Virus record (IMG/VR): IMGVR_UViG_3300020020_000148
Span: 1-25,942 of that record
Strand: one strand, 5' to 3'
From: a virus
DNA length: 25,942 nt
The notes beneath the pieces were generated by a model, which saw only the letters and a program-made list of their open reading frames with translations, did not search any database and was not told where the DNA came from. The position numbers and the translations under genes were made by a program. This document shows, in pieces, positions 15,301-25,942 of the stretch (position 1 is the stretch's first letter; each line of letters opens with the position of its first letter).

Positions 15301-15927
15301 TTATGAGTTAGTTACCGTTAGGTCATAGTCGGGGAGTTCTAGTATAACCTCCTCAATCTGGTCAAGAATTTGTGCTGATTCGTCAACTTCGGCTGGCCGC
15401 ATGTATCTACTTGTGACCTTTTCAGCCTCTACACCACAGTAGATAGCAGCGGCCTTGTATAGCATTAGTTGATCGTCAATCGGCAAATCCTCATAGTTCT
15501 CGTCCAACCAGTGAACTCCGATTACATCATCCTGTTCACGTTCAAGGTCTTGATGCTGAACCATAATAGCTCTAGCAGCTGCTCCATACATCTTAACCAT
15601 TTGATCCGCGAGTTCCTCTGTAGGAGCAGCACAGGCCACACCCACGCCTAGCTGCCACATCGCGTTGTAGTAGCCACCTGACTCTGGATGATCTGGTACG
15701 CGGAACAAACCTGGACTAAGAACAACAACCTTGGGTAGCTCTTCACCAGTGAGATCATCAAAGGAGTTACGTGTAGTATAGTTTCTCGGCTCAAGAAGTG
15801 GTTCTCTCTCCCACCCTTCTATCCGCTCCATTTCACGTAGATAGGTTGGGAACCATTTCTTGAGCAGAGTCATCGTTGATCGTTCTATACTAGACGCTGT
15901 GAGAATATTACCGAATGCTGAAGTCAT
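15301..15927 (-). CDS. Tail terminator/completion protein
   Basis: 208 residues in the neck cluster, at the slot where gpU-type or Mu gp37-type terminators are found. Features: an N-terminal helix (STMTLLKKWFPTYLREMERIEGWE), a strand block LPKVVVLSPGLFRV, then YNAMWQLGVGVACAAPTEELADQMVKMYGAAARAIMVQH, typical of terminators (strand, then a long helix with periodic Ala), and an acidic C-terminus (DESAQILDQIEEVILELPDYDL). Terminators cap the finished tube and provide the head joint. No catalytic motif. The ORF overlaps the connector gene by 4 bases (ATGA). The call rests on fold pattern and synteny. Confidence 0.62.
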   Translation of the reverse strand: MTSAFGNILTASSIERSTMTLLKKWFPTYLREMERIEGWEREPLLEPRNYTTRNSFDDLTGEELPKVVVLSPGLFRVPDHPESGGYYNAMWQLGVGVACAAPTEELADQMVKMYGAAARAIMVQHQDLEREQDDVIGVHWLDENYEDLPIDDQLMLYKAAAIYCGVEAEKVTSRYMRPAEVDESAQILDQIEEVILELPDYDLTVTNS

Positions 15928-24062: not shown

Positions 24063-24175
24063 TGACTTGCCATTTTTGTAAAGCGTGTAACAGGGCAGTA
24101 AGGCTATGTCCGATCACAAATCTCACGGTTTGTGGAAATGCTGTCTGTCTCAGGGAACTCAGGAGACTAGTATAG
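24062..24175 (+). CDS. Small Cys-rich ORF (37 residues), possible zinc-binding peptide
   Basis: Short ORF whose ATG overlaps the previous stop (TAATG) and follows GGGAGGA in the end of that gene. The peptide MTCHFCKACNRAVRLCPITN continues with VCGNAVCLRELRR. Its cysteines at 3, 6, 9, 16, 24 and 29 give a CxxCxxC start and a later CxxxxC, the look of a small zinc ribbon or knuckle. Translational coupling and the Cys spacing support a real gene; length keeps confidence moderate. Confidence 0.55.
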   Translation: MTCHFCKACNRAVRLCPITNLTVCGNAVCLRELRRLV

Positions 24176-24340
24176 CATAAGCAATAAGGTGCAAGAAGTA
24201 TAGCAAGTTGACCGGATCGCACTTTATCATCTCCCCTTCTTCAGGGGTGGGTGAGTAATGTAAGAATAAGGAAACGCGGCTCCGGGTACAGTGTATTACT
24301 TAGTAAGTAGTAAGAGAGAGATATACATAACAAGAGAATG

Positions 24341-24354
24341 GGAACATACGTTCG
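24341..24354. promoter_or_regulatory. LexA (SOS) box-like site
   Basis: The 14 bases GGAACATACGTTCG match the Gram-positive SOS box consensus CGAACRNRYGTTCG at 13 of 14 positions (only the first differs), with the GAAC-N4-GTTC core intact. It sits 14 bp after a TATACA -10-like element and 80 bp before the gene at 24435, so it could act as an operator for the downstream genes. One such match can occur by chance; binding is not shown. Confidence 0.4.
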
Positions 24355-24377
24355 CAGAAAACACATGAAATCTGCGC

Positions 24378-24413
24378 AAAGTCAGGAAAGTCAGGAATGA
24401 CAGGGGTGACGGT
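24378..24413 (+). repeat. Degenerate 9-bp tandem repeat
   Basis: AAAGTCAGG occurs twice in direct succession (24378-24395), followed by AATGACAGG and then a weaker GGTGACGGT. It lies immediately upstream of the ribosome site of the gene at 24435. It could be an iteron-like binding array or slippage-generated DNA; four short, decaying units do not decide. Confidence 0.4.
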
Positions 24414-24434
24414 TACGAAGGAGTGAAAGGAATC

Positions 24435-24617
24435 ATGGATACCGCGTTGTCTCTACTTAAAGAGTTTGTCGAAGAAAGCCCTCACTGGCACGATGATGAG
24501 GCTATGTATCACGAGTGTCTCTACTGTTACGCTTCAGTACCAGTTCACGTAGAAGATCACAAGCCAGACTGTCTCTGGCGTCGCGCTAAAGAGTTCATAG
24601 CATCAATGACCCCTTGA
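24435..24617 (+). CDS. Small zinc-finger-like protein (60 residues)
   Basis: From the ATG at 24435 after AAGGAG and AAAGGA purine runs; a GTG at 24423 in the same frame overlaps its own ribosome site and is less likely. The sequence MDTALSLLKEFVEESPHWHD is followed by MYHECLYCYASVPVHVEDHKPDCLWRRAKEFIA. The CxxC...H...C pattern (ECLYC, then HKPDC) ending in a helix is a common small zinc-binding motif in phage proteins. The function is unknown; DNA, RNA or protein contact is possible. The stop (TGA) lies within the -35 box of the next promoter. Confidence 0.65.
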   Translation: MDTALSLLKEFVEESPHWHDDEAMYHECLYCYASVPVHVEDHKPDCLWRRAKEFIASMTP

Positions 24618-24642
24618 CAAAAGGGGTGATTGCTGCTATACT
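24609..24642 (+). promoter_or_regulatory. Near-consensus promoter overlapping an inverted repeat
   Basis: TTGACA at 24614-24619, exactly 17 bp, then TATACT at 24637-24642: a perfect -35 and five of six for the -10. The -35 is embedded in an inverted repeat, ACCCCTT (24609-24615), GACAA loop, AAGGGGT (24621-24627). As RNA from upstream this would be a 7-bp hairpin, and as DNA a possible operator over the -35. No T-run follows the repeat. The promoter would start transcription near 24649-24651 and serve the gene at 24689. Confidence 0.75.
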
Positions 24643-24688: not shown

Positions 24689-25018
24689 ATGGCTGGAACT
24701 AACGGGAGAAGTAACGGTACATCGACCGAGCTTAAGGGCTTGCCGCCGGAGCTTATCAAGGCTCTTATGGGCAAGGGTCGCGCCAGGGGCGTCTATGGCC
24801 CTAGGCTTAAGCAGTTCGCAGAGAGTGACGAAGCTGCGATCAATCCACGCGAGTCGTGGCCGCTTGAGTTTGAGGGCAAGACTGCTCTTGCTATGACTCA
24901 GAGTTTCCGCAAGCATATTGCGGATGCTGACCTGGAGGACGTTATCCAGGTAGTCTCGCATGATGGCGAGTGTTATCTAGTCCATAAGGAGCGAGCTGCT
25001 ATCGCAACCCAGGACTAA
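24689..25018 (+). CDS. Unrecognised early protein with KGLxPELI motif (109 residues)
   Basis: Not recognised. The ATG at 24689 follows GAAAGGGGGTG, the same ribosome site type as the first late gene. Residues 1-15 are polar (AGTNGRSNGTSTEL), residues 16-23 are KGLPPELI, shared with the gene at 23820, then ALMGKGRARGVYGPRLKQF. The C-terminal ~50 residues (PLEFEGKTALAMTQSFRKHIADADLEDVIQVVSHDGECYLVHKE) look like a small alpha-beta domain with strand-turn-strand at the end. It has its own strong promoter and is followed by the structured intergenic region. The shared motif suggests a common partner for the two proteins. Confidence 0.75.
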   Translation: MAGTNGRSNGTSTELKGLPPELIKALMGKGRARGVYGPRLKQFAESDEAAINPRESWPLEFEGKTALAMTQSFRKHIADADLEDVIQVVSHDGECYLVHKERAAIATQD

Positions 25019-25274
25019 GCAAGTTGCAAGCAAGCTGCACTACGAATAAGTAATCTAGAGGCAAGCTAATACTTGCCGCTGGCAATCCTAACGGGTAGTA
25101 AAGCTGTAGAGGCTATATGTTCACCGTCGCCTGTTATGAGGCTTTACTACCTCTTAGGGTTGCCGCTAGGTTACTAAGCTAGTCAATGCAATGCTAGGTG
25201 CCGACGTATACAGTGGGGCTAGCTACCCAATCCTAGTGACTAGCTTAGTAACCTAGTAAACGGGAGGTTATTAA
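25019..25274. other. Intergenic region dominated by large inverted repeats (256 bp, no gene)
   Basis: No ORF with a ribosome site is seen. The first 40 bases carry repeated GCAAG units (25019-25066) and AATAAG; no strong promoter is evident. Positions 25060-25256 hold the structured element, and 25257-25274 are the leader of the next gene with its CGGGAGG ribosome site. Confidence 0.6.
25060..25256 (+). ncRNA. Candidate structured RNA with three large hairpins
   Basis: Stem 1: GGCAAG (25060-25065) with CTTGCC (25072-25077), 6-base loop. Stem 2: 24-base arms at 25081-25104 and 25141-25164 pair at 21 Watson-Crick positions plus two G-U wobbles, leaving one C-C mismatch; its 36-base loop has an inner AGGC/GCCT pair (25110-25113 and 25129-25132). 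Stem 3: a perfect 20-bp pairing of 25166-25185 with 25237-25256, with an inner CTAGG/CCTAG helix (25194-25198 with 25232-25236) and a TGGG/CCCA tip (25214-25217 with 25226-25229). The wobbles pair only in plus-strand RNA. No T-run follows, so it is not a simple terminator. It ends 18 bp before the next ATG, so it may be a leader element or a free small RNA. No known RNA family is recognised. Confidence 0.6.
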
Positions 25275-25481
25275 ATGACTTTTGAGCTTTATCTAGAAAG
25301 GTCTGCAAGACGTAAAAGCTTGCATCCATCGGAAAGAATGGGCCAAGCTTACTTCAATCAGCTAAGAGAGGATCAACCAGAAGTAGCGTCAGACGTTACT
25401 AACAGTGAAATTGATCCTTTCTATGACGACAATCTGATAGGAGAGTTTCTCACCTATCTATCAGTAGTATGGCAGGATTAA
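25275..25481 (+). CDS. Unrecognised small acidic protein (68 residues)
   Basis: Not recognised by family. The ATG follows CGGGAGG with eight bases spacing. The sequence MTFELYLERSARRKSLHPSE continues RMGQAYFNQLREDQPEVASDV, then acidic DPFYDDNLIGEFLTYLSVVWQD. It looks like an N-terminal helical pair (ERMGQAYFNQLREDQPEVASDV is a pattern seen in small phage proteins of unknown role) with a C-terminal helix. It lies directly after the structured intergenic element and its end overlaps an alternative start of the next gene, so the two are probably co-transcribed. Confidence 0.7.
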   Translation: MTFELYLERSARRKSLHPSERMGQAYFNQLREDQPEVASDVTNSEIDPFYDDNLIGEFLTYLSVVWQD

Positions 25482-25486
25482 ACGGG

Positions 25487-25942
25487 ATGAACGCGAAAGC
25501 GATAATCGGTGTAGTAACTCTTGCCCTAGCCTTAGTAAACACCACCACGGCCCAGGCGCTTAACATGAGTGGCAACGTTAAGCCACGACACTGGGCTTGG
25601 GCCAACTCAGCAAAACGTAACGTGCCTATGCCTAGCGCGAGTGTGAAGGTATATCCCGGTGATTTTGATCCAATGTATGATCCTGCTAAAAAGGTCATGC
25701 ACATTCCTGACGAGAACCGCAAACAGGAACATATACTATTCTTGCATGAATTGGGTCACGTCTTTGATTATCACAATCTAAACAAGCTTGAACGTAAGAA
25801 GTTCAAAATACTAATCAATTCAAGATGCGCGTGGTGGAGTCCCGCTTGTGAACTATGGCGCTACGGTTATCTGGATGGTAACCTAGAACCGGGAGAGATA
25901 TTCGCTGAGATGTATGCAGCTTGCGCTATCGGGCTAACCCGC
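25487..25942 (+). CDS. Secreted zinc metalloprotease-like protein (HExxH), C-terminus outside window
   Basis: At least 152 residues, open to the right edge. The ATG at 25487 is preceded by GGCAGGA with about nine bases spacing; an ATG at 25469 in the same frame is possible but less likely. Residues 1-24 read as a signal peptide: MNAK, hydrophobic AIIGVVTLALALV, then NTTTAQA with an AxA-type cleavage site. Residues 87-91 are HELGH, the zincin HExxH motif, with D94 and Y95 just after. A downstream EIFAEMYAAC block (E137, E141) could supply the third zinc ligand. Cysteines at 114, 121 and 146 fit a secreted, possibly disulfide-bonded enzyme. It should act outside the cell membrane; substrate unknown. 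It sits among small early genes, not in the lysis cluster. Confidence 0.72.
   Translation, partial: MNAKAIIGVVTLALALVNTTTAQALNMSGNVKPRHWAWANSAKRNVPMPSASVKVYPGDFDPMYDPAKKVMHIPDENRKQEHILFLHELGHVFDYHNLNKLERKKFKILINSRCAWWSPACELWRYGYLDGNLEPGEIFAEMYAACAIGLTR

Follow-up and report, generated by a model that had tools for sequence, protein, structure and literature searches.

Background

Ten RNase III sites have been described in phage T7 (PMC9135205). The cspA mRNA of S. aureus is stabilised and activated when RNase III trims the long hairpin ahead of its Shine-Dalgarno sequence (PMC3386247), and the rpsO-pnp intergenic hairpin is cut by RNase III with an effect on the downstream gene (PMC10126417). 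Among described phage repeats, those placed most similarly are the ESAS of Cluster K mycobacteriophages, inverted repeats with a group-specific consensus that precede the starts of non-structural genes (PMC3203893).

The element analysed here is located in a virus record of 25.9 kb (25,942 nucleotides, analysed in full and called the window below), where the gap between orf24689 (24689-25018) and orf25275 (25275-25481) is filled by two long back-to-back hairpins. Like the T7 R sites, it consists of gene-boundary hairpins in polycistronic phage mRNA, shortly before the next start and without a U-tract; in the R sites, however, the upper stems are short and contain an internal loop, and the apical loops are small, whereas the hairpin group to which the element belongs has 18-28 near-perfect pairs, large, variable loops and predicted cutting. 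The cspA leader shares with the element a long hairpin just upstream of a Shine-Dalgarno sequence, but is the 5' leader of a single host gene and not a repeated intercistronic phage element. The rpsO-pnp hairpin is likewise intercistronic, but belongs to a single chromosomal locus and has a larger internal loop.

Stems that are long and double-stranded, lie at gene boundaries and lack U-tracts are typical substrates of RNase III, and a site requires a stem that is double-stranded almost without interruption for about two helical turns. Folding of T7 sequence around nine sites gave hairpins at eight of them; the cut positions used lie 22-43 nt (one 120 nt) ahead of the next start.

The ESAS resemble the element in placement and in having group-specific sequence. 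They have imperfect 17-bp arms and spacers of 4-13 bp, followed by a 13-bp SAS (GGGATAGGAGCCC) adjoining the start codon, whereas the element has arms of 20-24 nucleotides, loops of 36 and 51 nucleotides and no SAS. Membership of the ESAS was rejected on the missing SAS GGGATAGGAGCCC and on arm and spacer lengths outside the range, and TM4 ESAS copies retrieved by the same search were unrelated in sequence to the arms of the element.

Genomic context of the element

The minus strand of the record encodes contractile-tail structural genes (terminase, capsid, sheath, tape measure and baseplate), and the plus strand carries small genes from about 23385 onward. The element is embedded in a co-directional operon, with the following features (window coordinates):

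24614..24642, plus strand: promoter of sigma-70 type predicted by consensus scan alone, TTGACA-17-TATACT plus extended -10 (11 of 12 matches)
24689..25018, plus strand: orf24689, 109 aa, small winged-helix-like protein according to its model (ORF list, family alignment, structure model)
25060..25077, plus strand: minor 6-bp stem-loop, stem 1 of the sequence-only reading (sequence, fold)
25081..25164, plus strand: hairpin 1, arms 25081-25104 and 25141-25164, one C.C mismatch, two G-U pairs (fold, arm search)
25166..25256, plus strand: hairpin 2, arms 25166-25185 and 25237-25256, inner helix 25194-25198 with 25232-25236 (fold; kept in the related record G002)
25262..25267, plus strand: Shine-Dalgarno sequence GGGAGG of orf25275, starting 5 nt past hairpin 2 (sequence)
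25275..25481, plus strand: orf25275, 68 aa (weak match to phrog_8466)

The ATG of orf25275 lies 18 nt past the end of hairpin 2, with TAAACGGGAGGTTATTAA as the intervening sequence. The structure model of orf24689 (pLDDT 83) is winged-helix-like and had no significant match among known structures, and the protein family matched neither Pfam nor PHROG; two copies of the family are often present per relative. The final ORF (25469-25942), which runs off the window, appears to encode a signal peptide and has a HELGH zinc-protease motif; it gave no Pfam match. The plus-strand operon has another gene-poor stretch, of about 360 bp (24063-24422), which contains neither long hairpins nor a plus-strand ORF of at least 60 aa.

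Structure and stability of the hairpins

Hairpin 1 is paired over 24 positions with a single mismatch (C25092.C25153), and its G-U pairs are U25086.G25159 and G25093.U25152. One base separates it from hairpin 2, in which 20 perfect pairs are prolonged by pairing of CUAGG (25194-25198) with CCUAG (25232-25236). The interval 25019-25274 folded at -108.5 kcal/mol (z = -6.1), a stability equalled by none of 200 shuffles, and z-scores of -6.8 and -5.3 were obtained for the two hairpins folded singly. When the whole window was dinucleotide-shuffled three times, no hairpin of at least 14 bp arose.

The two-hairpin observation of the sequence-only reading is confirmed: its perfect 20-bp stem and its 24-bp stem with one mismatch were both verified at the arms listed above, the fold of the interval bears them out, and no ORF of at least 60 aa covers the stretch that it had called gene-free. 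Its three consecutive stems hold good for the two long hairpins, stem 1 (25060-25065 / 25072-25077) being only 6 bp. The alternative CTAGG/CCTAG pairings to which it had drawn attention do occur, in an ensemble where the main stems prevail with mean pair probabilities of 0.95-0.99. An outer helix joining 25049-25058 to the 3' end, which would sequester the Shine-Dalgarno sequence, was also considered and rejected; it forms in the fold, yet after a simulated cut the Shine-Dalgarno site is paired by other partners.

Hairpins in related phages

Over 80 related contigs of environmental origin were retrieved with capsid and terminase as queries. Against cultured phages the capsid reached 22-27% identity at best and no DNA relatives were found; protein scans with both flanking small proteins returned zero matches, and a host search by capsid protein returned one genome only, with a 24% match. 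In a census of 1.47 Mb (relatives plus window) with a threshold of at least 15 positions, 102 non-redundant hairpins were recovered, 67 of them intergenic (the group, below) and 49 of these 67 flanked by same-strand genes. Hairpin density was 0.40 per kb in intergenic sequence against 0.021 per kb in genes (about 19-fold), a comparison in which some coding hairpins (for example, G045 L217 10806) were counted as intergenic because genes were called by a simple ORF script. Shuffles of 20 records yielded 0-2 hairpins apiece. The median stem length in the group was 21, and in about a third of its hairpins the next start codon followed 11-29 nt past the end. Ten more distant records contributed only 5 new intergenic hairpins, too few to give an out-of-sample test any power. 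Within one structural gene of the window, a long hairpin is present near the gene start (15785-15869), and recurs at the matching place in L147 (4868-4952) and L148 (1669-1753).

The sequence of the element was kept in a single record, G002 (72% over about 98 nt), where the copy lies directly 3' of the orf24689 homologue and a second, similar hairpin precedes the next gene. In other relatives the same gene is followed by strong hairpins unrelated in sequence, mostly one and not two. When hairpin 2 of the window was compared with G002, 3 of its 25 pairs were changed on both sides and none on one side, the outermost pair alone was broken, and the two-sided changes vanished when the register was slid by 1-3 bases. 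Covarying pairs in relatives, which the sequence-only reading had named as a check, were seen in this one comparison, but are insignificant alone because only two sequences are involved (60 of 500 shuffles reached the same covariation). Stem changes were few in orthologous hairpin pairs from other records, and in close relatives the arms were better conserved than the loops.

Two further observations concern individual records. The neighbouring hairpins of G002 (L122 1875-2072) have a common arm motif, which allows about 23 bp of pairing between the 3' arm of one hairpin and the 5' arm of its neighbour. Between L211 17003-17137 (G041) and L216 10899-10965 (G045), a hairpin loop and 3' arm are 88% alike over 67 nt, a loop conservation that contrasts with most loops in the group.

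A profile search of the called ORFs, in which hairpins within 250 nt downstream were counted, showed that a hairpin follows 15 of 20 genes of the orf24689 family and 127 of 2,733 other ORFs (4.6%). The associated p value (3e-16) is generous because the records share ancestry; the contrast between the family and other ORFs is large despite this kinship.

Terminators and independent RNAs

No T-run was present downstream of hairpin 1 or hairpin 2, and a terminator scan predicted none at the element, in accordance with the earlier view that it is not a simple terminator. An intrinsic terminator was rejected, with no U-tract at the element and a U-tract after only 5 of the 49 hairpins that lie between same-strand genes in the group. 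Terminators with weak U-tracts occur in some bacteria and the hairpins often closely follow stop codons, as would suit a non-canonical attenuator or terminator, either a stem without a U-tract or a Rho-dependent one. We regard this as improbable, given the rarity of U-tracts in the group and stems of about 21 bp with loops of 17-121 nt, which are unlike those of known intrinsic terminators.

Rfam 15 gave zero matches in the window at the gathering score and only a spurious miRNA match below threshold, in line with the earlier statement that no known RNA family is recognised. A consensus scan found no promoter or terminator belonging to the element itself within the gap. The put RNA of HK022 consists of two stem-loops that modify RNA polymerase and lead to terminator read-through, and the present layout of two hairpins one nucleotide apart is similar in outline. 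This layout and the possible alternative pairings would fit an independent small RNA, a leader switch or a put-type antitermination RNA formed by both hairpins jointly. Such a function appears very improbable: neither its own promoter or terminator nor an Rfam match was found, the two-hairpin layout is lost in most relatives, and the gene downstream of the element is not conserved among them. A stand-alone small RNA or decoy, as proposed from the sequence, is unsupported because the element lies in a co-directional operon, the hairpins of relatives are mostly single and comparable hairpins recur at other gene boundaries. A leader acting on the next gene, also proposed from the sequence, is a possibility, though the conserved partner is the upstream gene family and not the downstream gene.

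Mismatch architecture and level of action

Of 41 mismatches in intergenic stems of 19 bp or longer, 22 lay at a distance of 15-17 bp from the loop end (p = 3e-8 against an expected fraction of 0.16, for an interval picked after inspection of the data), and mismatches near the loop were almost absent, though the search handles both stem ends equally. On the mRNA strand, intergenic hairpins had 24 purine-purine and 6 pyrimidine-pyrimidine mismatches, against 15 and 17 in coding hairpins. Counted per genome, purine mismatches were favoured in 11 and not in one, the window, whose C.C mismatch runs counter to the trend of the group. In a relaxed, largely separate set the ratio was 15:7 (G.G 12 vs C.C 0), with 25:12 in coding hairpins.

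G-U exceeded A-C by 32:15 in the group and by 29:8 in hairpins inside genes. Since hairpins of both kinds share the excess, it is not decisive and was rejected as proof of RNA selection; strand-biased C-to-T change would imitate the asymmetry. The earlier claim of selection on plus-strand RNA is favoured by recurrence at the same place, kept pairing and strand-asymmetric mismatches, but its original argument from two G-U pairs is too weak because two of two would arise by chance with p = 0.25. Sequence information was near zero in either register while pairing was retained, and a subset of the hairpins has a common TAAGCTAGT-like motif. Mismatch position, strand asymmetry and low sequence information favour selection on RNA structure, short of proof, and it is fairly likely that the element acts at the RNA level.

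These data also bear on a DNA-level inverted repeat, that is, a site bound by a repressor of the phage or by some other DNA-binding protein, as has been suggested for further phage repeats, ESAS among them. The better conservation of arms than loops among close relatives, the motif common to a subset and the location ahead of start codons, as in ESAS, are consistent with such a site, which is nevertheless unlikely in view of spacers ranging from 3 to 90 bp, the near-zero sequence information across genomes and the strand-asymmetric mismatch types, unexpected for DNA. An RNA operator, by which a phage protein, possibly the orf24689-family product, would bind the hairpins and control its own mRNA and other hairpin-bearing genes, has some plausibility but is on the whole rather unlikely. 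The strong link of the family to the hairpin, the purine mismatch recurring at a fixed distance from the loop, the TAAGCTAGT-like motif, as expected of a specific binding site, and the small winged-helix-like model point towards it; many hairpins lie downstream of other genes, loops of 3 to 90 and widely variable arms are less easily accommodated, and the modelled fold is without a significant structural match. It is quite unlikely that the hairpins form a phage-specific class of fixed architecture (about 15-16 perfect pairs under a free loop, followed by a purine mismatch such as G.G and a further 7-9 pairs) bound by a dedicated phage protein, for example of the orf24689 family, as a post-transcriptional regulon.

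Proposed role in mRNA processing

The element is most likely an intercistronic hairpin pair that processes or stabilises mRNA (probability roughly 0.45), with host RNase III probably cutting. Its stems (24 positions with one mismatch; 20 pairs plus the inner helix) are of the extent expected of an RNase III site of the T7 R type, and it is positioned as such a site would be, between same-strand genes and shortly ahead of a start. The host enzyme is assumed because no phage-encoded RNase III (PF14622) was found in 21 relatives. The operon would be transcribed from the predicted promoter ahead of orf24689, and the hairpins would fold within the operon RNA, where host RNase III may cleave inside the stems. 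The orf24689 message would then retain a stem-protected 3' end, and the orf25275 message would gain a defined 5' end just ahead of its Shine-Dalgarno sequence. Cutting could in this way uncouple the amounts of the two proteins, through putative effects on stability and translation.

The structured RNA described as new from the sequence is real as a structure, but is best filed with intercistronic processing or stabilising hairpins; most likely, the element is a cis-acting untranslated piece of a polycistronic phage mRNA rather than a new free-standing RNA. Processing has two main competitors, a DNA-binding site and an operator in the RNA for a phage protein. If processing is the right reading, a large group of uncultured contractile-tailed phages would organise its non-structural operons by long double-stranded RNA and not by terminators, and T7-style mRNA processing would extend to unrelated phages. 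The tight link to the hairpins makes the orf24689 family a candidate RNA-binding partner.
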